The position numbers and the translations under genes were made by a program. DNA of 64,000 nucleotides from Oscillospiraceae bacterium Marseille-Q3528 (lineage in GTDB: Bacteria > Bacillota > Clostridia > Lachnospirales > Lachnospiraceae), in NCBI GenBank assembly GCA_018223385.1, contig JAGTTR010000011.1:1-64000 (forward strand), read 5' to 3'. The notes under the pieces were generated by a model. The model searched no databases. It saw nothing but the letters and a program-made list of their open reading frames with translations, and was not told the origin of the DNA. This document shows positions 25,612-63,939 of this stretch, piece after piece (position 1 is the first letter of the stretch; each line of letters begins with the position of its first letter).

Positions 25612-25629
25612 TCAAATTGGGGAATGGCG

Positions 25630-25666
25630 AAAACGGCGGTTGCCTCTAACAGAGCAGCCGCCGTTT
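25630..25666 (-). terminator. Hairpin terminator after the sortase
   Basis: AAACGGCGG and CCGCCGTTT pair, with an additional TGC/GCA step inside the loop. On the minus strand the stem ends in GTTTTC. It lies 54 bases beyond the sortase stop. Confidence 0.6.
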
Positions 25667-25719
25667 CCTCTATGCCATACGCTGCATTTCAGTATTGCAA
25701 GGTCATTTGGTTTTATAAA

Positions 25720-26559: not shown

Positions 26560-26638
26560 AATGCTGTCTCCTTGCCGCGCTGGGATAGCGGCGCAGCTCA
26601 AAATGTCATTGATTAGCTTCTTGTAGTGATGAAAAAGG

Positions 26639-26678
26639 AACAGCTCAGCTTCCGGGCAATACCGGAAGCTGAGCTGTT
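26639..26678 (-). terminator. Terminator after the giant surface protein
   Basis: A perfect 17-base stem (AACAGCTCAGCTTCCGG and complement, loop of 6), followed on the minus strand by CCTTTTTC. Confidence 0.85.
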
Positions 26679-26706
26679 TGTTGGCCTTAAAGGTGTGATA
26701 AAACGA

Positions 26707-29700: not shown

Positions 29701-32700
29701 GAAGTCATAGGTGTACGTCTGCTGTGTGCCGTTGATTATGTTCAGTGTGCCAATCGGGTTATTCATGGGCACGGTGGCCTTATTGATCTGGAAGGTCTTA
29801 TCATCAAAATCCGCGCCGTTCAGCGTAAAGTCCTTTTGGGTCGTGCCGTCGTCAAAGACATAGCCCGCATTCTTTAACTTGATGGTGAAGGAGACAGTCT
29901 TTTCGGTTTCGCCGGCATCGGCGGAATCATAGCGGGCGTTGAGCACCTCATAATCTGTACCCTTAGCCAGCCGAAGCGTAGTACCAGTATAATAGCTGTC
30001 CACGCTCTTAAATGTGATTTTCGTGTTTTCAGGCAGATCTGTCGTTCCGTCGTATGTCTTAATGATGTCGCCGACCGAAGCCGCTACTTTGAGCGGTCGG
30101 ACCGTCCATTGGGCAGACTTGCTTCCGGTATAATCGCCGTTGTCTGTTGCCTTGATGGTCAGCGTACAGGGGCCTACATCGTAGGTGCTATCGCCGCCGG
30201 TAATGGTGAAATCCACATCTTTTTCCAGCGTTTGGCCTTTGTATGTCACGACAAACGTCGGCACACCGGTCGCAGACACAGAATTAAAGGCCGCTTCATT
30301 GCCATAGGGGAATGTGATCTCGGCATTGCTGAGATTCGGCTTGGTGACGGTCAGCTTCTTTTCGGCGCTCTGCACCGTGTAGCCGTCCTTGGTGGCGGTG
30401 AAATAAACGCTGTATTTTCCAATCGTGTTACAAGGCAAGTCTACGACATAGTACCAGCTGGTGCCAATCTTTTGATATTCAGCTTTCCTCTGTCTGTATG
30501 TGGGCATGTTGTTTCCAACGATCTCCCCGGTGTAGATGTATACATCCGCACCACTTGTATTGCAGCCGGCGCAGAGCTGGACGGTCGTGCCGCGCTCCAC
30601 CTTCGGCGGGTTGCCGGTCAGGTTCTTGCCATCGACCTTCAGATTCAGGGTCTTGGAGGTGATGGGCAGGCTATTGATGATAACGTTGTTCAACTGCGAG
30701 TCTTTGACATCATTCGGGGCGTACCACTTGTAAGTGCCATCCGCGCTCGTGACCTTGAAGCCAAGGCGGGTGGGCTGCTGCAAGATGTCCTTCCACTTTG
30801 TGGTATCGGCCAATGTCAATTCACCGATCACAGCGGGATATCCCGACCCGGCAAGGTTCGCTCCCCTGTGGGCAACGACCGCATCAATGCTGACCGTGGT
30901 CGTGTTTTTCGTATTGCTCAAGGTGGTGGTGTTGCTGCCCGCAGCCGCCTTGACCGTCACCGTGCCCTTGATGGAATGGCCGTTCAGGTCAAGTCCCGTG
31001 TCCTGCGTGCCGTCGATGGTATAATCGCCGGTCACGTCGGCCAGCAGCTTAAGGGTCGCGCCGCCGTCTCTGTCTGCGTCAAGGGCCGTCTGCAAATCAG
31101 CAAATCTCCGCTGTAGGCGGTTGTTCAAGGTTGTTTCAGCCACCGCGGGCGCGTTGCAGTAGGGGCAGGCAGTAGCGCTTTTGTCAAAGCCGTTCTTGCC
31201 GCCGTGGCTGCACGACTTTACCACCAGGTCGCAGGTCTGGGAAGCGGCTTCCTCCGGCGTGAGCTGCGTGTCGTCACGGTAGTACGCAAGCCCCGCTTGT
31301 CCGGGAAGCAGATCACCCAATGTGATGCCGTTATTCAGCTGCAGACCGCTTCTCGAAATCTTTCCGCCGTACAGCTCGACTGTGCCGCCCCAAACCTCCA
31401 GTTGGAGCAAAGTGGTATGGTCATTCTCCGGATCAAATACCAGCGTACCGCCGTCCCGCACGGTCACGCCCACCGCGCCGTTGCCGCCGCTGCTGTCAAT
31501 GACCGTCAGTTTACCGGTGCGAACCTGGCTCGTGGGCGTAAGACCGCCGACATTCAAGCTGTACCCGCTCAGACTGTGTCCGTCCAAATCCAGCGTGAGG
31601 GTTTTGCTGACATATGTATCGCTGGGCAGCATCTCGTTTGCCAGCAGTGTAATGGTCGTGCCGTTGGCGGCCTTGTTCAACGCATCGGCGAGGTCGGCCG
31701 TGTAGGTGGTCGTTTCGCCGACCGTTACCTTGGCAACCATTTTTGCTTTGCAGTCCGTGCAAACGCCGTCATCGCCTATATTTTTGTGCGGGCAATGGTA
31801 GCCGCAGATGGGGCAGACGCCGTTTACCAGCACCGACTTTTCTTCGCTCAAGTCTCTGTGTGCGTGGCTTCTGCCGCATTTGCAGTAGGCCATGCCATGC
31901 GCTTCGTCCTGGGTGTAGTTGCATGTATGCGACTTGATCGTGTATGTTCCAGTTCTGAGTTTAAAACCACCGGCGTCCGCAAGACTGCCATCCGCCCTAT
32001 AGAAGGCATGATCCTTGGCTAGCAGATCAAGTGCCTTTTTGTAGACTTCAGCGCCGGGGACTTCGCTGTCCGTGATGGCAATGGCATTACCGGTTTCAGA
32101 AGCGTCAACGTAGAACGTGCCTTTTGTCAGAAGATTGGTCAGCCTCGCTTTGTCGAGTATCGTCAGACCACCGTTCAAGGATACGTTGCCCTGCAAATCC
32201 AGCTCGCCGCCCGTGGCATAGATCGCGGGCTTGCGGCTGTTGCTGCTGTCATAGCCGCCCTGCGCGGAGAGGTCGCCCGTAATCACCAGCTTACCGCCGG
32301 TGAGCGAGATGGCAGGGAAGGCGGTCGCGTTGGAAGCGGTGTTCTGGTTGATCTCGCCCGCGCCCTCGATGCGCAGTGTGCCGCCGGTGACGGTCAGGGG
32401 AACGCCTGCTTCTGCTTCCAGCTTGTGACCGTTCATGTTCAGCGTGAGCGACCCAGCCGCCGACCCGCTGAATGTGATATCCTCGGTCCAATCCTGTCCC
32501 AGCGTTACCGACGTGATAGAAGCGTTATCCGCCGCTGCATCCAGAGCGGCCTGTAACGTGTTGTAGCAACTGTTGTTATTGTCAACGACGATTGCTGCCA
32601 CGCCGCAGTCGCACTTGCCGTTTTCAAAGCTGTGGGTGTGGGGCCTGACCGTTACATTGGTCAGCGTTTTTTCAGTGCTGTTCTGCGCGTTGTCACCTTG

Positions 32701-34176
32701 GTAGAAGGCATAGTTATCTGCCAGCAGGGGCATGAGTGGGCTTGAACTGCTTCCGTTGATGTTCGTAATTGTACCAAACGTGCCGCCGCTGATGGCGATG
32801 GTTCCACCGTTATTACGGAATTTTACATTACCGAACGTACCGCCTGTGATGTTCAGCGTCCCATCGTTGTACCATGTGCCCGCGTGCCCTGTGCCGCCGG
32901 AAACGTTGACGGCTGCGCCATCGCCTACTGTGACGTTACATACCGTGCCGCCGCTGATGGTCACAGTGCCGCTGTTCCCGTTGCAGGTAAGGTTGCCTCC
33001 GTTGTAATCTCCAATCCGGCCGCCCTGAATCGCCAGTGAACCTTTTACAAATTCGAGGTTTTTGATTTTGCCGCAGCTGCCCCCTTGAATGTTATCTACG
33101 ACGGTCAGATTGCCGTTGTAGGAATCAAGGATTCCGCCCTCCTCGTCAGGAACCACATCGCCCACAGTGAGATAATCCACCGTCATGCCGTTCAGGTCGA
33201 GCGTCAAGGTTTTCCTGACGACAGCCATCTGCTCGTCGCCCGCATCGACGTCGCTCCAATTTGTCGTATGGTTTGCCAGCAGCTTGACGGTGTCGCCGTC
33301 CTGCGCCGCGTCCAGCGCCGCAGGGAGGGTTGTGTATGTACCGCCATCCGTGCCATCGGCTCTCGTCACCGAAGCAGCCGCAGGTTCGGTGACCGTGAGT
33401 GCCACGGTTGCTGACCGATCCTCTTCGTAGTTCGTGGTCTCGGCGGTCTTGGCGTAGACATAATATGTGCCGGGGTCGCTGATTGCGGTGTTTTCGTCAA
33501 TCTTGGGCATGGCTTCGCTACCCTCTACGTCAGAAGAGCCCGCCCAGCTTTTTAACGCGGAAGCCAGATAATAATATGTCACCTCGGCGTCTTCCGGAGC
33601 ACCCTCGACAGACAGAAGCGGAAGAAGCTTTTCGCCCGCCGTGCAAGCCGTCTTGGAAAGAGTTACGGTCAGATCGGGATAGGCCTTGTTGATGTTGCCG
33701 CCGATCGTAAACGTTTCTTCGCCCGCCTTGAGCTTGTACTTTACCGCGGCTTCGCCGATTAGCGCGATTTCCACAGTGACGGTATGCCATCCCGCGTCCG
33801 CGGAATCGAACGTCTTCTTGGCGGTAAAGCCCGTTCCTTCTTTGAGTTTGATTTCATTTGTGCCGTCTGTAAATGTCAAGTCGATTGGAATCGTGCCGCC
33901 GTCCGTTGTGCCGTCATAGCCGCGGCCAATGGAATCGGGCTTGCTTACGCACCAGATCTCCGTCTGCGTGTCCTCTCCGGGGATATATGTGCCGCCGCCC
34001 CCTTCTGTCGGGCTTCCGGGGTCTACATAGATCCCACCGCCCTCGCCACCGGTCTCACCGCCGCCGATGACACCGCCCGATATGCTCACGTCCTCTCCCT
34101 CGGCGAAAGCCGTTGTGGGCAGAAGCGTCAGGCAAAGCACGAGCACCATAAATAAGCTCAATACTCGTTTTTTCAT
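26707..34176 (-). CDS. Giant cell-wall surface protein with beta-helix, YDG/MBG-type repeats and sorting signal
   Basis: 2489 residues from the ATG at 34176 (AAAGGAGG 6 bases upstream; the in-frame ATG at 34236 has no such site and would spoil the signal peptide MKKRVLSLFMVLVLCL). After a Gly-rich segment and one YDG-like unit, the first half has repeated units beginning LQAALDAA/LADALNKAA followed by TLLA and many short Gly/Asn-rich strands (SGGTF, NGGTI), a beta-helix-like pattern. A Cys/His cluster (CPICGYHCPHK, CTDCK, CNYTQ, CKCGRSHAH) lies within it. The second half has repeated YDGTT units (TYDGTTDLP, PYDGTTNAN) and beta-sandwich repeats. A bacterial repeat near the end precedes STGDSSNLPLW, a hydrophobic helix and KRKRAR, a cell-wall sorting signal. 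No ligand can be named. Confidence 0.88.
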   Translation of the reverse strand: MKKRVLSLFMVLVLCLTLLPTTAFAEGEDVSISGGVIGGGETGGEGGGIYVDPGSPTEGGGGTYIPGEDTQTEIWCVSKPDSIGRGYDGTTDGGTIPIDLTFTDGTNEIKLKEGTGFTAKKTFDSADAGWHTVTVEIALIGEAAVKYKLKAGEETFTIGGNINKAYPDLTVTLSKTACTAGEKLLPLLSVEGAPEDAEVTYYYLASALKSWAGSSDVEGSEAMPKIDENTAISDPGTYYVYAKTAETTNYEEDRSATVALTVTEPAAASVTRADGTDGGTYTTLPAALDAAQDGDTVKLLANHTTNWSDVDAGDEQMAVVRKTLTLDLNGMTVDYLTVGDVVPDEEGGILDSYNGNLTVVDNIQGGSCGKIKNLEFVKGSLAIQGGRIGDYNGGNLTCNGNSGTVTISGGTVCNVTVGDGAAVNVSGGTGHAGTWYNDGTLNITGGTFGNVKFRNNGGTIAISGGTFGTITNINGSSSSPLMPLLADNYAFYQGDNAQNSTEKTLTNVTVRPHTHSFENGKCDCGVAAIVVDNNNSCYNTLQAALDAAADNASITSVTLGQDWTEDITFSGSAAGSLTLNMNGHKLEAEAGVPLTVTGGTLRIEGAGEINQNTASNATAFPAISLTGGKLVITGDLSAQGGYDSSNSRKPAIYATGGELDLQGNVSLNGGLTILDKARLTNLLTKGTFYVDASETGNAIAITDSEVPGAEVYKKALDLLAKDHAFYRADGSLADAGGFKLRTGTYTIKSHTCNYTQDEAHGMAYCKCGRSHAHRDLSEEKSVLVNGVCPICGYHCPHKNIGDDGVCTDCKAKMVAKVTVGETTTYTADLADALNKAANGTTITLLANEMLPSDTYVSKTLTLDLDGHSLSGYSLNVGGLTPTSQVRTGKLTVIDSSGGNGAVGVTVRDGGTLVFDPENDHTTLLQLEVWGGTVELYGGKISRSGLQLNNGITLGDLLPGQAGLAYYRDDTQLTPEEAASQTCDLVVKSCSHGGKNGFDKSATACPYCNAPAVAETTLNNRLQRRFADLQTALDADRDGGATLKLLADVTGDYTIDGTQDTGLDLNGHSIKGTVTVKAAAGSNTTTLSNTKNTTTVSIDAVVAHRGANLAGSGYPAVIGELTLADTTKWKDILQQPTRLGFKVTSADGTYKWYAPNDVKDSQLNNVIINSLPITSKTLNLKVDGKNLTGNPPKVERGTTVQLCAGCNTSGADVYIYTGEIVGNNMPTYRQRKAEYQKIGTSWYYVVDLPCNTIGKYSVYFTATKDGYTVQSAEKKLTVTKPNLSNAEITFPYGNEAAFNSVSATGVPTFVVTYKGQTLEKDVDFTITGGDSTYDVGPCTLTIKATDNGDYTGSKSAQWTVRPLKVAASVGDIIKTYDGTTDLPENTKITFKSVDSYYTGTTLRLAKGTDYEVLNARYDSADAGETEKTVSFTIKLKNAGYVFDDGTTQKDFTLNGADFDDKTFQINKATVPMNNPIGTLNIINGTQQTYTYDFNNILPGLPGGKYGTISYGQADISLVSQSGYYYDETIVEFKKGKLILAQFYAKDGKMTGKIGTVKVNVTTTNYADFQLKLVLNAVDQIKPEPDGTITATLITYGDTLSKSEISGKMKDPNTGDAVNGTFAWTDGTITPNAGDYEADWTFTPAAGYEKYATATGTVTVKVNKADPTFNAPTAQENLTYTGQEQALITAGSVTDYGPTMQYSLTENGTYSQNIPTGTDAGTYTVWYRVIGDDNHNDTTPASVEVRIGKKPLTITGVTAASKPYDGTTNANISSVTFDNVTLNRGTDYTVTASFDDAGVGNDKHITATVTLMEQAAKNYALEQSSFPTTGSIIKATAPDFTKETALTIVNGYEKTYTVTLPTLPTLETPKEYGAPTYELGDIKLNAGYYTGGAKVENGELTLPIQKNDVETTGSVGTVTVVIKSANYEDITLTVNVSAKNRITPTGTPTLSKNAIIYGDALNTIALSGKLHDNVNNVDVDGTFEWVDGTHIPVVGNGTYAAEWIFEPTDTEKYLTVSGRSNITVEKARQYGKLSMAGYTYGKTPSTPTLTDQTGDLNAQVTYSYAAADSGSVQTWDISNPPALNAGTYRMYASIGDTDNYYGFEAVYCEFVVAKATPTYTVPTGLTAKYGQTLADVTLPDGWSWMDSSESVGGASTAAKTFQAKFTPKDTENYNTVENIELEVTVNKADGGNLKTVELEQKYTDASDHTYTPDWAGLPAGQDWTFSSEASIVLPKQDFAADGNLLTYAISGGKAGDKITLILKASCDNYEDFTITLNVTLTEKDDQKPLTITGNTSVIYGEKLTLTTTGGSGMGAVTYRIDNAISTGEATIDPNTGVLTPVKVGSVSVIATKAGDNNYNDVTSAPFVLMIKPATPTGEPKYTIKATAGAGGSISPSGNVSVREGGDQTFTITPDKGYAVANVKIDGKSIGAVKSYTFENVSSPHTIEAIFVKGTASASTGDSSNLPLWSALLLASTLALAGAVHLKRKRAR

Positions 34177-34241
34177 AAGATCCTCCTTTAGAATATACAT
34201 ATAGGGTTTATATCCAGCCCGTTCAAGCACAGGCACAGCTT

Positions 34242-36605
34242 TTATAGGTCATCCGGAATGAGCCGCAGCTTTTTCGCGGCGGTCTTGGCCTCCGCCCGGC
34301 GCTTCACGTTCAGCTTGTCGAGGATGTGGCTGACGTGGGTCTTCACGGTCGGCAGCTTCACATCCATGATCTGCGCGATCTCGGCGTTGGACTTGTCCGC
34401 GCAGAGCAGATGCAGAATTTGCAGCTCCGTGGGCGTCAACTCCTCACCGGGGGCAAGGCGGGGTTCGAGGAAATGCGGGTAGAATGCCGCCTGCTTCCGT
34501 ACCGCCGCCATTATCTGCTTATACCACTTTTTGTCGCCATCCCAGTCCAGTGCCTCCAGCAGCGGCAACACTGCCGTGCCGTATACGCTGACGGTGCGGA
34601 TGAAGCGGTACTCCGCCGCCGCATCCAGCGCCGCCGTCAATCGCTCGCGCCACCGCTCGTCCTTCTTGCGGTACAGGGCAATGGCAGTCAGGACATTCAA
34701 GTGAATGCCGTCGATGATGCGGGCGCAGTTTTGGACATACGGCTCCAGCGGGGCAAGCGTCAGCTGCACCGTGTCCGGCCTGCCGTCCTCCAGCTCCACC
34801 ATGGCCTGGGTGAGATACTGGTAGCGCCGCATGACGTTCAGGTGCGTCAGCTCCCGCGGGGCTTTTTCCCGATACCACGCGTCCGCCGCGTCAAGGTTGC
34901 CGGTGTGCATGTCAATACGGCAGAGCATGGCGTCCATATTGGGCAGAAAGCGTGTCAAACCGCGCTCGGCAAAGCATTCACGGAGCACCTCGATGGTGCG
35001 CCGCGCGTCGGCGGGCTGTCCGCTTGCCAGCTGGCTGCGGGCCAGCAGTCCACTGACGGCGAACTCCATGTCCGGCGTGCCGCGGTTGCGGACCTCGTTC
35101 AACTGTGGGAGAAGGGACAGCATTCGACCGGCCACGTCCTCCCCCTTTTCAAACTTGCTCTCGGCGATGGCGCAGTCCGCAAGACCCACGCCGTCCCGCC
35201 CCAGCACCGCCTCCACGGGGAGACGGAGGGTTTTGTAGAGCAGGTCGTCCTTTTTGCTCCACGGGGAAAAGTCCTTGCCGCCGTTCATGATGCTGGGCAG
35301 CGCGCTTGTGACGGAGAAGGACGGCAGCGTCACTTCCTTGTTCATCAGCAGCCGGAACACGGCGGGAATGGTTTCCGTCAGACCGTTCACGCCCCGCTGG
35401 GGGAGAGAAATGTCCAGCCATGCAAGGCGGCTGCGGGCCTGCTTTCCGGCGGCGTCCTGCCTGCCGCAGCGCTCGGCAAATGCTTGCAGCTCGCCGTACC
35501 AGCGCTCCGAGCCTGCGTAGTCCATCGCCAGCGCGCAGAGCATGCTCATGCCCTGCATCAGCGAGGGAGAGGCGAGAATTTCCGCCTCCGGCAGGCTGCG
35601 GTAGTATTTTTCCATCTCGGCATAGTGACCCATGCCGGGGTGGAGTTCTGCATTGCGCACCAGCAGCTCGGAGACCTTGGCATGGTCGCCGCCCCTGGTA
35701 TAGCAGTCCAGCGCGCTGGAGAAGTCCTCCTTTAACTCATAGTAAAGCCCGCCGCGGCTGAGTAGCGCGCGGCGCTTTTCCTCGGTATACTCCCGTTCCA
35801 TCTCCCAGCGGAGAAAAGCTCGGAAACCCGACCAGAAGTGGAAGCGCTGGCAGTCGTCGTAGCGCAGCATAGTGGTGTATCGAAGAAGCCAGTCCAGCCG
35901 TTCGCCGGCATGGGGATCGCCGCTGACCATCCGCGCCATTTCCAGGTCAAAGCTTTCAAAGGGAGCCAGCTCCAACAGGAAGCGCCGCACCGGCAGGTCA
36001 AAGCGCCGGTAGATGGCGGTCTCAAAGTAGAGGAACACCTCGTGGAACACCCGCGCCACCAGCTCCGGTGTCCACGGCTTGTCTGGGGACATGCACCGCG
36101 CCGTGATGGCCACACCCAGCGGATAGCCCACGGATTCTTTCAAAATTCCGTCGATCTCGCTATCTGTTACATTTGCTCCCGAAAGCTGAAACAGTCGCCG
36201 CACATCGTCCGCGTCAAAAAGCAGGTCGTCGGCCTCCAGCACCGTCATCAGCCCCGTATACTGAAACGCCGTCAGGCAGCCGGGTGGCACACCGCGCGAG
36301 AGCAGCACGAAATGGCGCTCCGGACTTGAGCGAATCAATTCGCAAAGAGCCTGCTGCCCGGCTTCCTCCTGCATGAGCTGAAGATCGTCAATCAGCAGAA
36401 TGTCCCAATCCTGCGCTGACGGTGGGATCGCGCAGTCTGGGTCTGCCGCGCTTTGCCGCAGCACATTCCGCCCGCGCAGCAGCGCGTCCGCCAGCACAGT
36501 CTTTCCAAAGCCGCAGGGCGCGCTGAAAAAAAAGACTCTGCCATGCGCCATGAAGCTGTCAAACCGTTTCTGAACGGAGGGCTTTATGATGATATTTTCG
36601 GTCAT
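34242..36605 (-). CDS. MalT/LAL-type LuxR transcriptional regulator
   Basis: 787 residues from the ATG at 36605 (GGGAGG 6 bases upstream). Walker A APCGFGKT at 29-36, Walker B-like ILLIDDLQLM, a winged-helix region, a long helical repeat region (TPR-like) in the middle, and a C-terminal LuxR helix-turn-helix (LTPTELQILHLLC, SNAEIAQIMDVKLPTVKTH). Such signal-sensing ATPases (STAND class) activate transcription on ligand binding. The gene ends 65 bases before the giant surface protein on the same strand, so it is likely its dedicated activator or is co-transcribed with it (inference). Confidence 0.85.
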   Translation of the reverse strand: MTENIIIKPSVQKRFDSFMAHGRVFFFSAPCGFGKTVLADALLRGRNVLRQSAADPDCAIPPSAQDWDILLIDDLQLMQEEAGQQALCELIRSSPERHFVLLSRGVPPGCLTAFQYTGLMTVLEADDLLFDADDVRRLFQLSGANVTDSEIDGILKESVGYPLGVAITARCMSPDKPWTPELVARVFHEVFLYFETAIYRRFDLPVRRFLLELAPFESFDLEMARMVSGDPHAGERLDWLLRYTTMLRYDDCQRFHFWSGFRAFLRWEMEREYTEEKRRALLSRGGLYYELKEDFSSALDCYTRGGDHAKVSELLVRNAELHPGMGHYAEMEKYYRSLPEAEILASPSLMQGMSMLCALAMDYAGSERWYGELQAFAERCGRQDAAGKQARSRLAWLDISLPQRGVNGLTETIPAVFRLLMNKEVTLPSFSVTSALPSIMNGGKDFSPWSKKDDLLYKTLRLPVEAVLGRDGVGLADCAIAESKFEKGEDVAGRMLSLLPQLNEVRNRGTPDMEFAVSGLLARSQLASGQPADARRTIEVLRECFAERGLTRFLPNMDAMLCRIDMHTGNLDAADAWYREKAPRELTHLNVMRRYQYLTQAMVELEDGRPDTVQLTLAPLEPYVQNCARIIDGIHLNVLTAIALYRKKDERWRERLTAALDAAAEYRFIRTVSVYGTAVLPLLEALDWDGDKKWYKQIMAAVRKQAAFYPHFLEPRLAPGEELTPTELQILHLLCADKSNAEIAQIMDVKLPTVKTHVSHILDKLNVKRRAEAKTAAKKLRLIPDDL

Positions 36606-36768
36606 GTCTTCCCTCCCTTTGATACAGTGCGAGATTGTCATAAGCCTTTTGCCACCTATCTCAAATTATATTATACGCGGCTGTTCTGAAATGTAAATCA
36701 TCCCAAAGGATGAGACGCGCTGCATAGCAAACGGCTGTGCAGGCCAGCATTTCGTGAGGTGAAAAAGA

Positions 36769-55699: not shown

Positions 55700-55813
55700 A
55701 TGATGCAGGAACTGAACTATATTCGTTGTGGTGATTACTATATTCCCGACATTCGCTTACCGGAGGAATCCAGACCTATTGGTCGGTGGGGACGTATGCA
55801 CAGAGATTCCTGA
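55700..55813 (+). pseudogene. tnpV: Truncated TnpV (transposon-encoded protein)
   Basis: 37 codons, with TTGGAGG 7 bases before the ATG. The sequence IRCGDYYIPDIRLPEESRPIGRWGRMHRDS matches the start of TnpV proteins, which normally run about 110-130 residues and continue HRDYLKEH. Here it stops two codons later; a one-base deletion (or the junction with the next segment) ends the frame. TnpV function in Tn4451-like elements is unknown. Its break marks the left edge of the second accessory segment. Confidence 0.65.
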
Positions 55814-55872: not shown

Positions 55873-58800
55873 TTACTTTTCGATGCTTTGCAGCGATTTT
55901 TCCTCACGCCGCCGCCTGATCTGCCATCTGGTCAGCGCAAGGCATCCGGCAAGAGATGTGCAGAGGGAGATCCCCCACAAGCCTAACACGCTGCTGTCGT
56001 CGGTCTGCGGGACTATGGTCACGCGCCAGCCTGCATACACGGTCATATCCTTCGTCAGATAAACGCCGGAAACCTTGTTTGTCAGGCTGCGTTCGCTGTA
56101 CCAGCCCGTAAAGGCATAGCCGCTTCTTTTCGGCACATACTTCGACAGGTCAATGAGGGCGTTGTAGCTGCCGCTGACGGGAGAAAGCTTATCCCCGCTG
56201 TTCGTTTCAAAGGTCAGCGTGTAATAGACGGGCGGATTGTAGCCGCCGCCGATGTACGTCCAGTGGGCGTAGACGGTGGTATTTGCAGAGAATACGGTAT
56301 CCGTCGTAACCTTCGTACCGCCGCTCTTTTCGGTGTACCAGCCGTCGAAGTTGTGCTTGCTCCGGGAGGCACTGGGCAGCGAACTTAGCTTCTGATTGGT
56401 GGTGGTCATGCTGCCGACAGAGGGCGTACCATCGCCCGCGTCAAAGGTGACCATGAACTCGGTGGGTGCAGGCACGTCCTCCTCGAAGATTGCCTTGACC
56501 TCCACGTTGGCGTTCGGCATGGTGAACTTATTGTCCTTGATGGTCACGCCGCCGCTCATGACCTGCCACTCCTTGAAGTGGTAGCCGGTGTTTGGCTTGG
56601 CGGTCAGGGTGATCTCCGTACCGACCACGGCTTTTGCATGAGAGGCGGAAGCCGTTCCGTTTCCGTCCGTTTTCACGGTGATGGTAAACTCGGTAGGTGC
56701 AGGCACGTCCTCCTCGAAGACAGCCTTGACCTCCACGTTGGCATTCGGCATGGTGAACTTATTGTCCTTGATGGTCACGCCGCCGCTCATGACCTGCCAC
56801 TCCTTGAAGTGGTAGCCCTTGTTGGGCATTGCGGTCAGGGTGATCTCTGTGCCGGCCACGGCCTTTGCAAGAGAGGCGGAAGCCGTTCCGTTTCCGCCGC
56901 TGGTCACAGTGACGGTGAACAGCTCCTCGACCTTATCCTCCACCGTCAGCGTGCCGTTGACCCTGTTGAGCGAATACCGCTCGTCCCAGCCGGATTTGAG
57001 GGCGGCAGCGGGGACAACGGTGTAGGTTCCGGGGGTATTGCGTGCCGTGTCCGCTGCAACCTCCTCGTTGTTCGCGTTAAGCAGCCGATAGGAAAGGGCG
57101 TTGTCCAGCACCGTATCCCGGTCATCCGTGCGTCCCTCGCTGTCCAGCAGGCCGGTACAGCGCACAAGGTCTGTTGGCAGCGCATCGCCCTTGGTGATGG
57201 TTGCGCTGCCTGCCGTCACGGTGAGACCTCGCACAAAGACCTTGCCACCGGCGACAACAGTACTACTGCACCATGGCGACCACGCCGCCGTGGTATCGGA
57301 CACATAGAGAATATCGATATAGGTATTGCCCGCCTTGATCGCCCTGACCTTCGTCGTATAGTGGGACACTCCCGGCTCGCTGGTCGTATCGACGGTTTCC
57401 TCGTAAATTTCAAAGATCCCCTGCTCCTGCATGATCGCCGACCAGGTGCCGTTTTCGCCGGGATTTATCGCCTTCCACTTGTAAGTGCGGGTATCTCCGT
57501 AGACCCAGGGGCTTAGATCCCATCCTGCTCTGAAGCCTGCAAAGAGATACTGGCGCACGGTCAGCGGGGCGGTAATGGGCGCGTGGTCATCGCTGGTGAT
57601 GGTGACGGTGTAGACCTCTGTTTTCAGCTGCTCGCCTTTTGTTTCCGCTTTATCGTAGCGCAGGATACCGTCGTTGTCCACACGGATGCTGTCCAGAATG
57701 GAGGGAGACGCGGGCGGTGTGATGGCCGTGATCTTTGCACCCTTGGGCGCCTCCCCCGGCTTAAAGAAATCCGCCGCCGTCCGTGTGCCGCCCTGCGCAG
57801 GATAGCCGCCGTGCCTGCTCGGAATGATCCGGATCACAGGGTCTACCAGATCCTCTGCGGAAGGCGCGTCTTTCTCGAAGATGGCCTCAATCGTCACATT
57901 GCCCTCGGGCATGAGGAACTTATCGTTGGTGATGGTCACGTCGCCGCTGATGACCTGCCACTCCTTGAAGTGGTATCCCTCGTCGGGCGTTGCGGTCAGG
58001 GTGATCGTCGTACCGGCGGTAGCGGTGGAAGGAGTTGCGGCACCGGTGCCGTTGCCGTCATTGGTGACGGTTACGGTGTGCTCGGCTGCGGGGGCGTTGG
58101 TTATCGTAATAGACAGCTCCTTTGTGTCCTCGCCCAAAGCGTTGACCGCCTTGACGGTAAAGACCGCAGTCTCCTCCCCGGCGGGTGTGCCGCTTATCTC
58201 TCCGGTGGTCTCGTTCAGGCTGAGTCCCTTGGGAAGCGTGCCGCTCGCAATGCCCCATGTGATGGGCGCAGTACCCTTTGCGGTCAGGGTCTGGCTGTAT
58301 GCCTCGCCTTCCGTGCCGCCGGGCAGGGTCTCGGTGGTGACGGTCGGCGGGCTGTCGGGAACGGTGAGCTTTACCCTGATCGCGGCTGTTACCGCAGGCT
58401 CCGGCTGCTGGAAGATGCGTCCGTCGTCTTCGCCAAGCACCAGCGTGCCGGTGATGGTCTGCCAAGCCGTGGACTGCGCGTCATAGGACGATTCATTCCA
58501 TGCTACTTCGATCCAGCGCCAAGCGCCGTCAACGCCGTTGATGCACACATTTTCCGGCAAGCCAAGCTCTGCAAAGGGGGTGCCGATCGACTTATCGGTA
58601 ATGGGATCCGATTCGTCGATGTCCTTGATGGTGTTTTTGATGGCGCTTATCTTAATGGTGGTCTCCGTCGGCTTGTGGAGGCGTGTGTCGTCCGGCTTGA
58701 ATACCACCGTCACCTCGTGTTCTTCCGCAGACCGGAGGTAGAACGGCGGGGCCTCCTTGAAGGAGAACGTGCCGGGGGCGACGGTATCCGTACCCTTGAC

Positions 58801-61035
58801 CTTTACCACGCCGCCGACGAGCGTGCCGACTTCCGCGTTGTAGGTTCCTACCTGGAGCTTTCGCCAGGTGAATATGGTGTTGTCGGGCAGCGTATAATTG
58901 CCGTTCCTCCAATGGAATACAGGCACCTGCGTGATCTCCGTCTCGGCCGGGTCGGGCTGCAGCTGAACCTTGGTCACGGCTCTGAGGTCGGCGTCCTCGG
59001 GTATGGTGAAATACTTCTCCAACTCGGCGCGGTCGACCTCGCCGTAGATGGTCTGCTCCTCAAACGAATTGGGGTCGTAGGTCGAGCTGTCCCACGAGGT
59101 GACAACGGGCATATCATAGCCTGACCCGGTCCCATCGGGGTCGTTTTCATCGCCGACGGCGTAAAAGCTGAACGAATCCGACAGGTTCAGCTCTTCAAAG
59201 GTCGTTCCGATCTTTTTATCGAGAATGTACCCGATACTGGAACTGATGAATTTGCGGGGGATGACGTTCACGTCGACGGTACATTCCGCCTTGGTGTACC
59301 GCTTTGGGTTGTCGGGCGTGAAGATGACCTTCAGCTGCAGCGGACCCGCCTGCAAAAGCGTACTCGCCGTCAATGAGTGGCCGTATATTTTCTGATCTTC
59401 GTCCAGCGTGAATTTGCCGGAAACCGTTTCGCCGTTCGCCGTGGCCTTTCCACCGGAGAGATACTTGTTGGAAAATACAAGGAAGCACAGATCGCCGCCG
59501 TAGAGCTGCTTGGAATAGGTGGGAGGCTCCAGCGTGGGCGTAAAGACGCGGTCGTCAATGAGCGTTATCCTTGCGGTGGCCCTGACCGTGCTTGTCGGCT
59601 CCAGATAATCCGTGTAGCTGCTCTTTTCAACATGCAGCTCGCCGGTAATGATCTGCTCGCCATATTTGTTCGGGTCATAGGCGGAGCCGTCCCATGTCAC
59701 GGGGACGGGACTAAAGTTCGCGCCGGTGTTGGTCTCTACGTTGACGCCGGAGGGAAGCCCCAGGTCCTCAAACGCCGTACCCAGCGGCTTGTTGTTGATG
59801 TATACGTCGTATGGAACACTTGTGATCGTGCGCTTTGTCCCCATCACGGTAATGATACATTCCGCCGTGGTGTATGCCTCGGTATCTTTGGGGGTAAAGA
59901 GGATCACCATGCGGTTTTCACCCGGGTACACTTTGCCGCCCCGATCGTTTTTGAAGCGGAACGAACCGGGGACGACGACGCCCGTATTCTCGGCCTTCGC
60001 TTCGCCGCCCATGAGGGCGGCGTCGGTGTACTCATTGCCGACATAGGCCGGAAGACGCAGCGTGGGCGGGGTCGTGATCACCGTTTTGGCAGGCTGCAAA
60101 AGCTCTCCGTAGGCCGTATGACAGGTTTCGCAAATGGCCTTCTCCGTGCCGGTGGCCTTGCCGCCGGAGCAGCTGCCTGTTTCGGTATGGCTGCTGTCCG
60201 TGGTGCAGGTGCGTGTGTGCGTTCCGTTGCCGTTGGAGATCCATTCGCCCCAGCTATGATTGTGCACCTCCCATATGGCGTAGATGGTTTCGTTCAAAGA
60301 CGGATGTACCATCAGGTAATTCCAATAATATCCCTCTTCGCGAAGATACCTTGGTTTCCCATTCGGACTATCTGCCCAACCCTTGAAGGTATGTCCGTCA
60401 CGGGTTGGAATTTTTTCTGATATGGGGATCCATACAGATAATTCCGAGCTGGTCTCGCTCTGACTTGGCGGCGCGCCGCTTCCGCCGTTGGCATCGTAAT
60501 GCAGCGTATAGGTGTATTGGGTGGCAGCGGGACGGACTGCCCCGAGCAGAGGCATTGGCGTTTTGCCGTCCTTGGAATCGCAAATCTCACATACATAGGT
60601 GCAGGGTTTTCCCATGGCAGCCGGTGCGTAGCCGCAATCCTTGCCATGCGCGTGCTTGCAGTCTGATGCTTGAAGGATGCAGCCGCTTTTCTCGGTGCAC
60701 TCATGGACGCATTCCGTCGGTGCTGCGTTTTCGGCCTCCGATAAGCCGTCGGCATTCTCCGACACGCTTTCCGCCGGGTAGCATTCCGCCGTATGCGCAT
60801 GGACGCACCGGGTTATGAGACTATGACATTCCTCCGTGTGCTCATGAGAACAGGGAATTTCCGCTGTCCCTTCGGTATAGCCGCAGGCCTCGTCATGCTC
60901 CGGGTGGTGTTCGCACAGACCGCCCGGGTTCGATGCGCGTGCGCCGGTCTCTCCCTCCGCCGCGAAGGCAGGCACAGGCTGCATGGTCAGCACCATGCAG
61001 CATAGGAGCAGGATGCTGAGTATTCGTTTCTTCAT
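55873..61035 (-). CDS. Second giant cell-wall surface protein with InlB-type repeats and sorting signal
   Basis: 1720 residues from the ATG at 61035 (GGAGGAG 8 bases upstream). Signal peptide MKKRILSILLLCCMVLTMQ. The next about 150 residues are Cys/His rich (CSHEHTEECH, CVHAHTAECYP, CVHECTEKSGC, CTYVCEICD), a pattern seen at the start of many clostridial surface proteins. Then come an InlB-like repeat (LHYDANGGSGAPP ... KGWADSPNG), beta-sandwich repeats with a conserved Thr/Pro-rich cadence, an Ig-like segment (TLPGGTEGEAYSQTL, GLSLNETTGEISGTP), three repeats of type TLTATPDEGYHFKEWQV, and two more InlB B-repeats (FDGWYTEKSGG, FTGWYSERSL). The end VPQTDDSS, hydrophobic helix and RRRREE is a sorting signal. 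The start overlaps the previous stop by ATGA. Confidence 0.88.
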   Translation of the reverse strand: MKKRILSILLLCCMVLTMQPVPAFAAEGETGARASNPGGLCEHHPEHDEACGYTEGTAEIPCSHEHTEECHSLITRCVHAHTAECYPAESVSENADGLSEAENAAPTECVHECTEKSGCILQASDCKHAHGKDCGYAPAAMGKPCTYVCEICDSKDGKTPMPLLGAVRPAATQYTYTLHYDANGGSGAPPSQSETSSELSVWIPISEKIPTRDGHTFKGWADSPNGKPRYLREEGYYWNYLMVHPSLNETIYAIWEVHNHSWGEWISNGNGTHTRTCTTDSSHTETGSCSGGKATGTEKAICETCHTAYGELLQPAKTVITTPPTLRLPAYVGNEYTDAALMGGEAKAENTGVVVPGSFRFKNDRGGKVYPGENRMVILFTPKDTEAYTTAECIITVMGTKRTITSVPYDVYINNKPLGTAFEDLGLPSGVNVETNTGANFSPVPVTWDGSAYDPNKYGEQIITGELHVEKSSYTDYLEPTSTVRATARITLIDDRVFTPTLEPPTYSKQLYGGDLCFLVFSNKYLSGGKATANGETVSGKFTLDEDQKIYGHSLTASTLLQAGPLQLKVIFTPDNPKRYTKAECTVDVNVIPRKFISSSIGYILDKKIGTTFEELNLSDSFSFYAVGDENDPDGTGSGYDMPVVTSWDSSTYDPNSFEEQTIYGEVDRAELEKYFTIPEDADLRAVTKVQLQPDPAETEITQVPVFHWRNGNYTLPDNTIFTWRKLQVGTYNAEVGTLVGGVVKVKGTDTVAPGTFSFKEAPPFYLRSAEEHEVTVVFKPDDTRLHKPTETTIKISAIKNTIKDIDESDPITDKSIGTPFAELGLPENVCINGVDGAWRWIEVAWNESSYDAQSTAWQTITGTLVLGEDDGRIFQQPEPAVTAAIRVKLTVPDSPPTVTTETLPGGTEGEAYSQTLTAKGTAPITWGIASGTLPKGLSLNETTGEISGTPAGEETAVFTVKAVNALGEDTKELSITITNAPAAEHTVTVTNDGNGTGAATPSTATAGTTITLTATPDEGYHFKEWQVISGDVTITNDKFLMPEGNVTIEAIFEKDAPSAEDLVDPVIRIIPSRHGGYPAQGGTRTAADFFKPGEAPKGAKITAITPPASPSILDSIRVDNDGILRYDKAETKGEQLKTEVYTVTITSDDHAPITAPLTVRQYLFAGFRAGWDLSPWVYGDTRTYKWKAINPGENGTWSAIMQEQGIFEIYEETVDTTSEPGVSHYTTKVRAIKAGNTYIDILYVSDTTAAWSPWCSSTVVAGGKVFVRGLTVTAGSATITKGDALPTDLVRCTGLLDSEGRTDDRDTVLDNALSYRLLNANNEEVAADTARNTPGTYTVVPAAALKSGWDERYSLNRVNGTLTVEDKVEELFTVTVTSGGNGTASASLAKAVAGTEITLTAMPNKGYHFKEWQVMSGGVTIKDNKFTMPNANVEVKAVFEEDVPAPTEFTITVKTDGNGTASASHAKAVVGTEITLTAKPNTGYHFKEWQVMSGGVTIKDNKFTMPNANVEVKAIFEEDVPAPTEFMVTFDAGDGTPSVGSMTTTNQKLSSLPSASRSKHNFDGWYTEKSGGTKVTTDTVFSANTTVYAHWTYIGGGYNPPVYYTLTFETNSGDKLSPVSGSYNALIDLSKYVPKRSGYAFTGWYSERSLTNKVSGVYLTKDMTVYAGWRVTIVPQTDDSSVLGLWGISLCTSLAGCLALTRWQIRRRREEKSLQSIEK
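56450..56890. repeat. Near-identical tandem coding repeats in the surface-protein gene
   Basis: Two units of about 240 bases, encoding TLTA-(K/M)PN-GYHFKEWQVMSGGVTI and flanks, are almost identical at DNA level (56450-56685 and 56690-56890). A more diverged third unit lies at about 57850-58070. Confidence 0.8.
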
Positions 61036-61385
61036 TGGCTTTTCTCCTCCTGTTCGTGTCGGTTCGGTTTGTCCGCCCCGTCTTTTTTCTGGTTTTCTCT
61101 GTTTCTGAGCCGGAAGCACAGCGCGGTGATCGCCGCTGCCGCGGCAAAGGAGACGACGGCCACCAGCACATAGCCGCCCGCGTCCTCCCGCAGCAGCATC
61201 GCGCCGAAGCTGCCCCATGCGGCGGTCTGTCCCCGCCCGGCGACCGTGCCCGCCGCCTGCATCAGTGCCGCGAACAGCAGCATACACATAGCGCTCAGTC
61301 CATAGATGCCGCGCCGCTGCCTCCGGCGGGTGTTTTCCCGCATCCGCTGCTTGACGAGTGCGACCCGTCTTGCGGTATCGTACAT
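61032..61385 (-). CDS. Small two-TM protein B of the sigma/PrsW module
   Basis: 117 residues from the ATG at 61385 (GGGGG about 9 bases upstream). A basic N-terminal segment (VKQRMRENTRRRQRR), TM at about 31-52, an outside loop with FGAMLLREDAGGY, and a second TM (VLVAVVSFAAAAAITALCF) followed by a charged tail (RLRNRENQKK). The end of TM2 (ALCFRLRNRE) resembles the same place in protein A of this module (ILCFRIRQMNRE), so the two are probably paralogues. Its stop overlaps the start of the giant surface protein (ATGA), which implies coupled translation. Function unknown. Confidence 0.7.
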   Translation of the reverse strand: MYDTARRVALVKQRMRENTRRRQRRGIYGLSAMCMLLFAALMQAAGTVAGRGQTAAWGSFGAMLLREDAGGYVLVAVVSFAAAAAITALCFRLRNRENQKKDGADKPNRHEQEEKSQ

Positions 61386-61439
61386 ATTGTTTGAACCCCC
61401 TTTCCGGTTTGTCTGGAACTGTGATAAAAACCCTTTCAC

Positions 61440-61475
61440 TTATATAGGTACAAAAAATCGAAAAAACTCTCACCC
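61440..61475 (-). promoter_or_regulatory. Candidate promoter for the two-TM/surface-protein unit
   Basis: Read on the minus strand: GGGTGAGAG, then a T-rich stretch, GTACC, TATATAAG, GTGAAAGGG, between the upstream terminator and the start of the two-TM gene. There is no good sigma-A consensus, so it may be the target of the local ECF sigma factor. This is only a guess. Confidence 0.35.
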
Positions 61476-61492
61476 AAAACGAAAAATTTTTC

Positions 61493-61528
61493 AAAAAAAA
61501 TTTGAGAGCTGCCAAAAAGCAGCTCTCA
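61493..61528 (-). terminator. Terminator after the PrsW-type gene
   Basis: GAGAGCTGC-(6)-GCAGCTCTC, followed on the minus strand by eight Ts. It splits the module into two transcription units. Confidence 0.88.
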
Positions 61529-61544
61529 ATGGGTGAATGTTCGG

Positions 61545-62174
61545 TTATTCCCTCTGCGACAAGCGGAAAGCGGACAGCTTTCCCGCCGCCACCAGTAGCA
61601 CCGGCAGGGCGTAGGCCACATACTGCGCCGCGCCGCCGTAGGCGATGAGCAGATTGTAGATGGCGTGGAGGGTGATGGCAGCGCCCAGCAGGCCGCAGGT
61701 GCCCGCGATCTTCAGCCACGTCCGCCGCCATGTGTATGCAAGCCCGCCGCCGACGATCAGACCGCAGAGGACGTGCATCGCTCCCGTGCCGAAGCCCCGG
61801 AAGAAGATGAAGGAAAAGCGATCCGCACCGTTCTGGATCAGATAGCACACATTTTCGAAGGTGGCGAAGGCGAGGGTGACTGTTATTGCCGCAGCCTTGA
61901 TTTTATCTCCCTCCGGCTCAAATACCAGAAGATAGAACACCAGCGGCAGCAGCTTCATCATTTCCTCCACCACCGGCGCGATCTCCGCCGTGGCGGCAAG
62001 GGCGTCCGCCTGACATACCGCCGCGAAGAAGGTGTTGATATAGGCCGAAAGCAGGCACACCCCCATCCCGGCAATGCAGAACAGGAAAAAGCGGAGCTGC
62101 CGCCTGCCCATGCACAGGGCGGCCACTAGCAGGGGAGATACCATGCAGAGGAAGATGTTTTCGATGTAGGTCAT
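61545..62174 (-). CDS. PrsW-type intramembrane metalloprotease
   Basis: 209 residues from the ATG at 62174, which overlaps the previous stop (ATGA). Multi-TM with the PrsW signatures: the EE pair in EIAPVVEEMMKLLP, ATFENVCYLIQN, RGFGTGAMHVLCGL with a conserved His, and ITLHAIYNLL. In Bacillus PrsW cleaves the anti-sigma factor RsiW to release an ECF sigma factor. Here it is encoded two genes after an ECF sigma factor, so it may act on one of the two-TM proteins (inference). The open frame extends far upstream, but that part is antisense/out-of-frame to the preceding gene. Confidence 0.78.
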   Translation of the reverse strand: MTYIENIFLCMVSPLLVAALCMGRRQLRFFLFCIAGMGVCLLSAYINTFFAAVCQADALAATAEIAPVVEEMMKLLPLVFYLLVFEPEGDKIKAAAITVTLAFATFENVCYLIQNGADRFSFIFFRGFGTGAMHVLCGLIVGGGLAYTWRRTWLKIAGTCGLLGAAITLHAIYNLLIAYGGAAQYVAYALPVLLVAAGKLSAFRLSQRE

Positions 62175-62797
62175 GCGTCCACCGCCTTTCTCGTGGCGGG
62201 CAGCAGCCCCAGAATGGCAAACGTCAGCAGCAGATCGCACCAGAAGGTGGGGCTTGCGGGAGAAGTATCCGGCCAGAAGCAGCCCGCCGTCCAGAGCAGA
62301 TATTCCGCAAACGCAAAGCACAGCACGCCGATATGGAAGTACCGCATATTCCGCGCCGTATCCGTCTGCGTTTTCGCATAGGCAAGAGCGCGAATGGCGC
62401 AGAAGGAGAGCCATATCATCATGCCGCACCAGATCAGGTTGGAGAGAATGTCCCCGAAGGTGCAGTAGAACGCCAGCAGCGGAAGGCCGAATGCAGGCGC
62501 AAGCCATGCCCTGCAGCAGTGGAAGGTGCGCTCATCTGCTCCGGCCAGCGTGGCCTGCAAAATGCGCAGGAAAATTACGCTGGCCACCCAGCCGAACTCC
62601 GATACATAAAAGACCCGCGGTGTGGTATCGAATAGCAGCAGATACAGCGTCCAGTAAAGCGCGCCGAGGGCAAAGCAGCCATAGAAGCACAGCAGCAAAA
62701 AATACGCCTGCCTGCAACTTTTGCGGTAGGCGATACCCGAAAGCACCGCGCCGACGAACGTGACCAGCAGTTGCAGCAAGTTCTCAATCAGCTCCAT
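62171..62797 (-). CDS. Multi-TM membrane protein of unknown function
   Basis: 208 residues, about six TM helices (for example AYFLLLCFYGCFALGALYW and LCFAFAEYLLWTAGC), basic and aromatic loops, no recognisable domain. It overlaps the gene before it by 14 bases and the PrsW gene by 4, so it belongs to the same operon. It might be a partner of the protease or a sensor. No function is assigned. Confidence 0.7.
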   Translation of the reverse strand: MELIENLLQLLVTFVGAVLSGIAYRKSCRQAYFLLLCFYGCFALGALYWTLYLLLFDTTPRVFYVSEFGWVASVIFLRILQATLAGADERTFHCCRAWLAPAFGLPLLAFYCTFGDILSNLIWCGMMIWLSFCAIRALAYAKTQTDTARNMRYFHIGVLCFAFAEYLLWTAGCFWPDTSPASPTFWCDLLLTFAILGLLPATRKAVDA

Positions 62798-63146
62798 GAA
62801 TCCCCTCGCTTTCCTCGTTCTGATCGTCCTCCCGGTTCATCTGCCGGATGCGAAAGCACAGGATGGTCACGCACACGCCAAGCAAAAACGCCAGCAGCCC
62901 GATGACGATGTATCCCAAGGCAGCGCCGCCGTGAAAGATGCTGGCCGCCGTTTCAAAGCCGGAATAATCGCCGGTCTGTATCCGCGTGGCAATGCCGGGC
63001 ATGGCGAGGGACGCGCCTACAAGCAGCGCAAGGCACGCCGCAGCAGCGGAGATCATCGTGATCTTATCGCGCCGCAGCCGTTTCTCCCGCTCAATTTTGG
63101 CGATGCGCCGCTTGGTCTCCACGACCCGTTCCTCATGACTGCGCAT
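62784..63146 (-). CDS. Small two-TM protein A, next to the ECF sigma factor
   Basis: 120 residues. Basic N-terminal cytoplasmic segment of about 28 residues (VVETKRRIAKIEREKRLRR), TM at about 30-50, outside loop with GYSG/FETAASIFHGG, TM at about 78-98 ending ILCFRIRQMNRE, then an acidic tail. It overlaps the sigma-factor stop by 14 bases. Position and topology would fit an anti-sigma or a sigma-binding partner, but no known anti-sigma domain is recognised. Related to protein B at 61032-61385. Confidence 0.7.
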   Translation of the reverse strand: MRSHEERVVETKRRIAKIEREKRLRRDKITMISAAAACLALLVGASLAMPGIATRIQTGDYSGFETAASIFHGGAALGYIVIGLLAFLLGVCVTILCFRIRQMNREDDQNEESEGIHGAD

Positions 63147-63681
63147 TTGTGATTCCCTCCCGTTCCAGCAGCCGTCGCAGGCTCTCTTTTCCGCGATACA
63201 CCATGTTGGTGATCTGTTTTACCGTTTTTCCCGTGACCTCCGCCGCCTGCGCGTAGCTCATGCCTTCAAAATAGGTGAGATATAAAACCTCCCGATAGTC
63301 CGGGTTCATTTCGCTCATGCAGAAATGCAGAATGCGGTTTCGCTCCTCCGTCCGGATAATCTCCTCCGCCAGCAGCCGCCCGTCCGGCTCGCCGGTCAGC
63401 TCGTCGAGGCTGAACAGGGGCTTCCGCTTGCTCTTATGGCGCAGCGCCATGTGCCGTGCCGCCTTATAGAGATACGCCTTGAAGCCGCCGTCCCGGATCT
63501 TCGGCTTTTTCGTGAACAGATAGGCGAAAACGTCCAGCATCAGCTCCTCAGACTCGTGAACGTCGTGCAGATAGCCGTCAATATACAGGGTTAGCGGGTC
63601 GCCGTATTTCTTCATCAGGGCCTCCAGCCCCGCGTCGTCGCCGTTCAGATATTGCCGGTAGAAAGTCTCGTCGCAGACCAT
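63133..63681 (-). CDS. ECF-type RNA polymerase sigma factor
   Basis: 182 residues from the ATG at 63681 (AAAGGAAG about 9 bases upstream; a GTG at 63690 overlaps that site). Region 2 (EALMKKYGDPLTLYIDGYL, EELMLDVFAYLFTKKPK, AYLYKAARHMALRHKS) and region 4 (NPDYREVLYLTYFEGMSYAQAAEVTGKTVKQITNMVYRGKESL, key helix within it) are clear. It heads an operon with two-TM protein A, a multi-TM protein and a PrsW-type protease. No anti-sigma domain is fused. Targets are not known; the giant surface-protein unit is the obvious candidate. Confidence 0.88.
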   Translation of the reverse strand: MVCDETFYRQYLNGDDAGLEALMKKYGDPLTLYIDGYLHDVHESEELMLDVFAYLFTKKPKIRDGGFKAYLYKAARHMALRHKSKRKPLFSLDELTGEPDGRLLAEEIIRTEERNRILHFCMSEMNPDYREVLYLTYFEGMSYAQAAEVTGKTVKQITNMVYRGKESLRRLLEREGITNAQS

Positions 63682-63729
63682 ATCGTTCACTTCCTTTTTG
63701 CGGATGCTTCAAATGCAGAGGGGTATCCG

Positions 63730-63939
63730 TCAGGTGCTTGTCCTGCCGGGATCGCGGCGCTTTTCCTGAAAGCGCGGGTCGGACGGCTTTCCCGCGTTTC
63801 CCGGGATCGCCCATGATCGCCCGAACCGGGACGCACGGGGGCTCCGCCCCTCGGCGCAATATGGGTGGACCCGCCGCTCTGACACGCCCCAACGGTAGGA
63901 CGCCTCCCGAATGGAGATATAGCCCTTGATCCCGTTCAT
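63730..63939 (-). CDS. Small excisionase-like helix-turn-helix protein
   Basis: 69 residues from the ATG at 63939 (GGAGG 6 bases upstream). HTH of MerR/excisionase type: YISIREASYRWGVSERRVH, then CAEGR and FGRSWAIPGNA. Similar small proteins accompany clostridial mobile elements and regulate or assist excision. It ends 49 bases before the sigma-factor gene, and read-through is possible. The last 15 residues look unusual (EKRRDPGRTST), so the 3' end may have drifted. Confidence 0.6.
   Translation of the reverse strand: MNGIKGYISIREASYRWGVSERRVHPYCAEGRSPRASRFGRSWAIPGNAGKPSDPRFQEKRRDPGRTST

Follow-up and report, generated by a model that had tools for sequence, protein, structure and literature searches.

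An ECF sigma factor, a PrsW-family protease and a stand-alone seven-TM protein in a conserved gene set that looks like an undescribed switch in gut bacteria

PrsW is described as the protease that carries out site-1 cleavage of the membrane anti-sigma factor RsiW (excerpt of PMC3482391). Anti-sigma domains of under 50 residues may belong to class II (excerpt of PMC7406223), the members of which embrace the outside of the sigma factor (excerpt of PMC8103513), and in the sigma-M system of Bacillus subtilis the membrane proteins YhdL and YhdK jointly hold an ECF sigma factor (excerpt of PMC6827917). Here we describe a locus of Oscillospiraceae bacterium Marseille-Q3528 in which an ECF sigma factor and a PrsW-type protease are encoded together with two small two-TM proteins (A and B), a multi-TM protein and a giant surface protein, and for which an earlier note on the same DNA had proposed a circuit, with PrsW cleaving a small TM protein and the sigma factor driving the surface-protein unit. 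The gene set looks like an undescribed switch in gut bacteria; no description of it appeared among the matches listed from open-licence PMC full text. The reading that we consider somewhat probable is a one-output envelope module, in which the multi-TM protein would sense a signal, PrsW would cut a two-TM anti-sigma factor, the sigma factor would drive the B/surface unit and B would feed back.

Gene order and protein families of the locus

The features lie in the following order on the minus strand of positions 55873-63939 of the window (the whole 64,000-nucleotide stretch that was analyzed).

63730-63939, minus strand: weak HTH_59-like frame (HTH_59 score 19.8, cut-off 27)
63133-63690, minus strand: ECF sigma factor, 185 aa (TIGR02937, Sigma70_r4_2)
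62784-63146, minus strand: two-TM protein A, 120 aa, homologous to B, with no Pfam or NCBIfam cut-off reached; short basic cytoplasmic helix, TM1, outside loop, TM2 (N-in/C-in by charge)
62171-62797, minus strand: stand-alone seven-TM sensor-like protein (the multi-TM protein), 208 aa (AF2 model, charge, profile homology)
61545-62174, minus strand: PrsW-family intramembrane protease, 209 aa (PF13367, 3e-17)
61502-61529, minus strand: intrinsic terminator between PrsW and the B/surface unit (12-pair stem and T run)
61432-61473, minus strand: conserved element of 42 nt ahead of the B/surface unit, for which it is a putative ECF-type promoter (conservation in close units)
61032-61385, minus strand: two-TM protein B, 117 aa, a homologue of A whose gene opens the target unit
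55873-61035, minus strand: surface protein, 1720 aa (Pfam Flg_new_2, Flg_new and He_PIG)

Every named frame is open on the minus strand, within the stretch and in the order that the earlier note had given, and the overlaps of 4–14 bases that it named within units are found as 14 bases for sigma/A, 14 for A/multi-TM, 4 for multi-TM/PrsW and 4 for B/surface. The terminator is, by eye, present also in the other eight aligned close intervals. The label of an excisionase-like HTH was not supported, the HTH_59 score falling below the cut-off; as the HTH is absent from five and a fragment in one of the 13 closest loci besides the window (L001 and L018–L029), we place it outside the module.

The sigma factor matches TIGR02937 over residues 22–174 (67.8 bits, cut-off 42.9) and Sigma70_r4_2 above its cut-off (6.7e-14), with Sigma70_r2 just below (21.5 against 24). 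At ~185 aa, it has no regions besides sigma-2 and sigma-4, as in the ECF family; an ECF group covering it may exist in the large ECF reclassification, and its nearest solved chain by sequence is SigW of B. subtilis (E 2e-8). The PrsW-type protease claimed for the locus is likewise confirmed, by its Pfam domain (PF13367, 63.3 bits against a cut-off of 23.5) and its intact motifs. PrsW proteins carry the conserved motifs EExxK, FxxxE, H and HxxxN, and none of the residues E70, E71, K74, F103, E107, H134, H170 and N174 varies among 20 sequences, which we take to be the pattern of an active PrsW. Since it scores 34.7 bits against the 225 required by the NF033739 test for PrsW orthologues, the protein is best classed as a family member, and is not called an orthologue of B. 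subtilis PrsW; a sequence search of solved chains with the PrsW profile returned nothing useful.

The relatedness of A and B stated in the earlier note is confirmed (phmmer 1.6e-10; hhalign 99.7% with E 1e-25 across 109 columns). Judged from hydropathy and charge, each protein forms a hairpin whose loop lies outside and whose two basic termini lie inside, with a segment of about 25–34 residues ahead of TM1; Met1, Arg14 and Phe87 are unchanged in 22 sequences. The structure model of A, with long helices, is of low confidence (65.9) and was used for the helix count only. None of A, B and the multi-TM protein has a Pfam or NCBIfam match above cut-off, and no known anti-sigma domain was found among them in these libraries, in agreement with the view that no classical anti-sigma is present; A gives a sub-threshold match to DUF4179 (E 0.063), aside from which no anti-sigma family was named for A/B at E up to 1. 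DUF4179 is a family that occurs beside sigma factors. The ~25–34 residues before TM1 fall short of the class I (RsiW/ZAS-type) domain of above about 50 residues, which often binds zinc; their length fits class II. A search of solved chains with the A/B profile gave nothing below E 0.86. In public metagenomes, all 8000 scored candidates pass E 0.001 with the A/B profile; no source name stands among the best 120 listed, seven of which bear a Pfam label, that of the malarial ETRAMP family, taken here as spurious.

Conservation of the module and the seven-TM domain

When A was scanned against a genome collection of 84,980 species, 12 loci were obtained; among 145 relatives, six genomes had matches. 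With the A/B profile, for which at most the best 11 candidates were scored per genome, 18 of 392 genomes match; the ten strong matches (E 3e-17 or better) all come from genomes that hold the module, and the eight weak ones have E values of 2e-5 to 8e-4. The order sigma-(A)-7TM-PrsW is kept in all 34 modules, the window included and G411 left out as a duplicate of L026. This co-conservation of sigma factor, two-TM family and PrsW answers the neighborhood check that had been proposed for the locus, and leads us to reject, as far as co-conservation goes, the notion of a chance neighborhood. As 32 of the 34 modules were located through A/B (the window being the starting point, and G472b coming from the element described below), the presence of A/B in modules is largely ascertained, and the 7TM profile was therefore searched independently in the same 392 genomes.

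That search, with at most the best seven candidates scored per genome, found 22 proteins, 14 of them stand-alone and eight within longer frames; all 14 stand-alone matches sit in a module. Seven of the longer frames were read whole, and are 7TM-dCache-HisKA-HATPase-REC-Hpt hybrid histidine kinases in three cases (Hpt just under cut-off in one) and 7TM-dCache-HD_5 (HD-GYP-type) proteins in four; loci L135–L142, all from the same bacterial order, carry such kinases or HD_5 proteins. The module protein is homologous to their N-terminal domain (hhalign 99.8%, E 5e-28). A direct link to the kinases is seen for 18 of 26 module proteins (for one only at 0.003), the eight without it including the seven long forms, and in divergent modules 7TM identity to the window falls to 13%. 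In metagenomes 833 of 7998 candidates pass E 0.001 with the 7TM profile; no source name stands among the best 120 listed, and one cluster has 11,413 members.

The AF2 model of the window's 7TM protein (pLDDT 93.4, pTM 0.89) comprises seven long helices, with an N-out/C-in topology by charge. Seven TM helices with the N-terminus outside are also the layout of microbial rhodopsins, which bind retinal through a mid-TM7 lysine. In the window protein the only lysine of TM7 (183–207) is at 204, near the end, which argues against light sensing; fold matches to rhodopsins and GPCRs are within the range that helical bundles reach by arrangement alone.

Protein A is present in 26 of the 34 modules and absent in eight, and B lies downstream of PrsW in 32, the misses being L029, where there is none, and G077, where the contig ends; at least one A/B gene occurs in every module. 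G077 has a form of A with 62 aa and a single TM, and its B is on a second contig (L043), read as the continuation because the end of PrsW is repeated there. Separately, the B frame of the nearest genome seems shifted near profile position 82 (G001 C1:1239068-1239386, at the start of L031), L082:4948-11436 holds two modules in tandem, of which the first lacks both A and its own surface gene, and a joined A-7TM protein (P0209), a single sequence that looks like a deletion, was set aside.

The earlier proposal of A as the anti-sigma is thus upheld in part: A is a homologue of B and occurs in most modules, but its absence from eight of them, and that of B from one, make the A/B family as a whole, at best, the candidate anti-sigma and PrsW substrate, rather than A alone. 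A different assignment would make the 7TM protein the tether of the sigma factor, released directly or with the help of PrsW, and A and B accessories of export or anchoring; it would suit the eight modules without A, where the 7TM gene directly follows the sigma gene in the usual anti-sigma position, and the 4-base coupling of B to the surface gene. We regard it as unlikely, as the same 7TM domain is fused to the N-terminus of kinases and HD_5 proteins that contain no sigma factor, in 26 of 34 modules A is located between the sigma and 7TM genes and away from the surface gene, and L029 has A and a secreted-looking protein without B.

The 42-nt element and the exchanged cargo

The element, GTGAGAGTTTTTTCGATTTTTTGTACCTATATAAGTGAAAGG (61473-61432), follows the terminator and precedes B. 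An alignment of nine close units shows no variation in 39 of its 42 columns; the corresponding figures are 54 of 72 for the upstream flank and 24 of 48 for the downstream flank. Its first part agrees at seven of nine specified positions with the SigW −35 consensus, TGAAACxTTT, given in an excerpt of PMC6713349. The class-1 pattern built on the element occurs once in the window and in none of 100 shuffles. We know of no −10 consensus that resembles the element. With up to three mismatches, the pattern was found in two of 392 genomes, both of them module carriers, and in all 12 of the genomes known to carry the module, with 16 sites (reversed control 0), 12 of which are source module sites, the window and these 12 modules having served as the source of the pattern. 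Of the four other sites, all outside known modules, three lie ahead of B-surface genes (L110, a full second module; L107, an orphan; and L109, where the contig starts 142 bases before the element, so that a sigma gene may lie beyond) and one, in L108, lies ahead of the gene for a 473-aa secreted-looking protein with a sub-threshold LRR_5 match, ~200 bases downstream. A variant element in G083 has exactly three sites, all before B-surface genes: one beside the module, one (L038) with no sigma gene in the 20 kb read, and one (L037) near a contig end ~340 bases upstream of its B, beyond which a sigma gene is possible.

A matrix trained on 39 target units places 30 of these same units above the best non-target site (17.5) in the 30 loci scanned, the element being weak or absent by score in the other nine; six of the 39 target coordinates were off the start codon, which shifts only the 180-nt upstream window, and the element of G321a, beyond that window, was found in a later scan. 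The B/surface unit, with an ECF-like element to itself, shows no surplus of sigma-A-like promoters: such sites occur before two of the 39 units, against 1.0 expected. On this count we reject a sigma-A promoter for the unit, named by the earlier note as an outcome that would speak against its circuit. Upstream of the sigma gene itself, the class-1 pattern is absent from all 34 regions and the best matrix score is 6.9 (G225, followed by G321d at 4.9); no autoregulation through the element was seen there, these two highest scores leaving room for some. Sigma-A-like sites (at least 10/12) are present in 11 of the 34 regions, against 1.6 expected, and 23 lack one, including that of the window, where the region is clipped by the window end and the best site is 8/12. 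The sigma operon itself thus appears to be read from a sigma-A-like promoter, at least in part of the modules.

Three classes of element, set by eye, require two changes on a tree of 33 sigma factors (G077 left out), the minimum possible, compared with a mean of 14.4 after shuffling; the fit could also arise from joint inheritance, helped by near-copies. Together, the conservation and placement of the element suggest a putative ECF-type promoter that the module's sigma factor may recognize.

The distribution of the element also bears on whether PrsW instead acts on the surface protein, or on B, during export, the sigma factor having no control other than that of its own synthesis. A proposal for PrsW-dependent processing of exported proteins exists, for PrsW-type toxin export, and the PrsW gene adjoins the B/surface unit; in that proposal, however, the exported protein carries PrsW as an N-terminal fusion (excerpt of PMC3482391), whereas here it is a separate gene of the sigma operon, before the terminator, and element-bearing B-surface genes occur with no adjacent PrsW in L038, in L107 and, as far as the contig goes, in L037. 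We judge such a role to be quite improbable, and retain the candidate two-TM anti-sigma as the more likely substrate.

The surface protein of the window contains Ig-like, InlB-type and Listeria-Bacteroides repeats and a C-terminal TM, and by eye a leader-like N-terminus and a VPQTD sorting-like motif; a stretch at 60526-60921 (residues 39–170) with 14 Cys and 11 His in 132 residues is possibly metal-binding. Loci L018–L024, from Oscillospiraceae, Butyricicoccaceae, Acutalibacteraceae, a Christensenellaceae MAG and Lachnospiraceae, share 87–91% identical DNA with the window over 2.8–3.0 kb, running from the HTH or sigma gene (and reaching the window's edge in five of the seven loci) to 10–120 bases inside the surface gene. 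Past this point L018, L019 and L024 show no match to the surface gene, L020 shows one of 274 bases, L021 one that begins at the middle of the gene, and L022 and L023 have a related gene (76–85%), so the cassette is kept and its cargo is often different. G001, the nearest genome compared, belongs to one family with G411, taken to be Blautia wexlerae, which makes Lachnospiraceae the probable source of the window. Among 13 other cargo proteins scanned, three have SLH, three LysM and two no Pfam hit, the remaining domains being Fn3/collagen, FctA, Big_2, DUF6273 and InlB-type repeats. By these comparisons of sequence, the regulatory genes are passed as a cassette from family to family, and the surface protein that accompanies them is often another one.

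Such mobility would also suit a reading in which the genes are chance neighbors carried by mobile DNA, with no joint function: the cassette is found at high identity in different families, and in G001 a gene upstream of it presumably encodes a relaxase. That explanation is very improbable, given that the order is kept in 34 of 34 modules, including those whose 7TM proteins are down to 13% identical, and that the element is tied to the target units. Searches of mobile DNA gave 72 stretches in IMG/VR viral contigs that fit the A peptide pattern, none confirmed as a relative, and three distant plasmid records for the sigma factor, all below 25% identity. Two fecal records labeled as phage, MT835688.1 and MT838012.1, encode A at 83–85% identity; they may be bacterial DNA, and the part of MT835688.1 examined holds no annotated feature.

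In the window, a TnpV fragment (PF14198, 1.1e-8) at 55703-55810, between the surface gene and its chromosomal neighbors, is a remnant of mobile DNA. The stretch 26707-36641 encodes a 799-aa MalT/LuxR-type regulator and, after it, another giant surface protein, with a YDG domain in a 2509-aa frame and, by eye, a C-terminal TM; the regulator ends ~65 bases before the likely ATG of the surface protein, so that the same kind of cargo here has a different dedicated regulator. The orphan unit L107:1104-2412 aligns with window 25627-27042, at 94% over 209 bases (the end of the second surface gene) and at 82% over 1041 bases from the last bases of that gene onward, suggesting that surface genes pass between units with a sigma-type and units with a LuxR-type regulator.

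The proposed switch and its relation to known systems

We infer the following course for the switch. The stand-alone 7TM domain would receive a signal at or in the membrane and control PrsW, which would cut a small two-TM protein, namely A or, in modules that lack it, B; this protein is predicted to hold the ECF sigma factor at the membrane through its short N-terminal helix. The freed sigma factor would then read the 42-nt element and transcribe B together with one giant surface protein, and B, being homologous to A and the first product of the unit, may restore inhibition and shut the system off. The weakest links in this chain are the binding of the sigma factor by A/B and the control of PrsW by the 7TM protein; the gene order, the A-B homology, the 7TM model and its sharing with kinases and HD_5 proteins, the PrsW motifs, the element with its tie to the target units and the change of cargo behind the cassette are all computed. 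The outline of the earlier circuit is therefore right, with the anti-sigma role moved from A to the A/B family; the identity of the 7TM protein and the exchange of surface proteins behind the cassette had no part in it. We also entertain, tentatively and with somewhat less confidence than would make it probable, that the 7TM domain is a plug-in sensor with three outputs (histidine kinase, HD_5/HD-GYP-type phosphodiesterase and, as a separate subunit, PrsW-sigma), combined here with exchanged cargo, a constant promoter, a new two-TM feedback anti-sigma and a transferable cassette.

A/B and 7TM are unnamed protein families that are abundant in public metagenomes. If true, the proposed switch would explain how single giant surface proteins are turned on and off in many gut Firmicutes, provide a signal-receiving partner for PrsW, add a class of small two-TM anti-sigma factors and offer a narrow sigma-promoter pair for use as a tool.

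The closest known counterpart is SigW-RsiW-PrsW of B. subtilis, with which the module shares an ECF sigma factor, whose nearest solved relative is SigW, and PrsW. It differs in having the two-TM family where no RsiW-type anti-sigma was found, a 7TM protein, no clear sign of autoregulation and a single giant surface protein as output; moreover, PrsW is encoded within the sigma operon, unlike in B. subtilis, where its gene is located elsewhere. The ~25–34 residues before TM1 liken A and B to the class II anti-sigmas CnrY and NepR by length alone, A and B having two TM helices. Membrane proteins that hold an ECF sigma factor are the likeness to sigma-M/YhdL/YhdK, a set in which, to our knowledge, there is no PrsW or 7TM protein. 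In PrsW-dependent polymorphic toxins PrsW is fused to the exported protein, whereas the two are separate genes in the window and in the modules read. Finally, the hybrid kinases and HD_5 proteins possess the same 7TM domain fused to dCache and output domains; in the module, unlike in those proteins, it is a separate protein whose gene neighbors those of an ECF sigma factor and PrsW.
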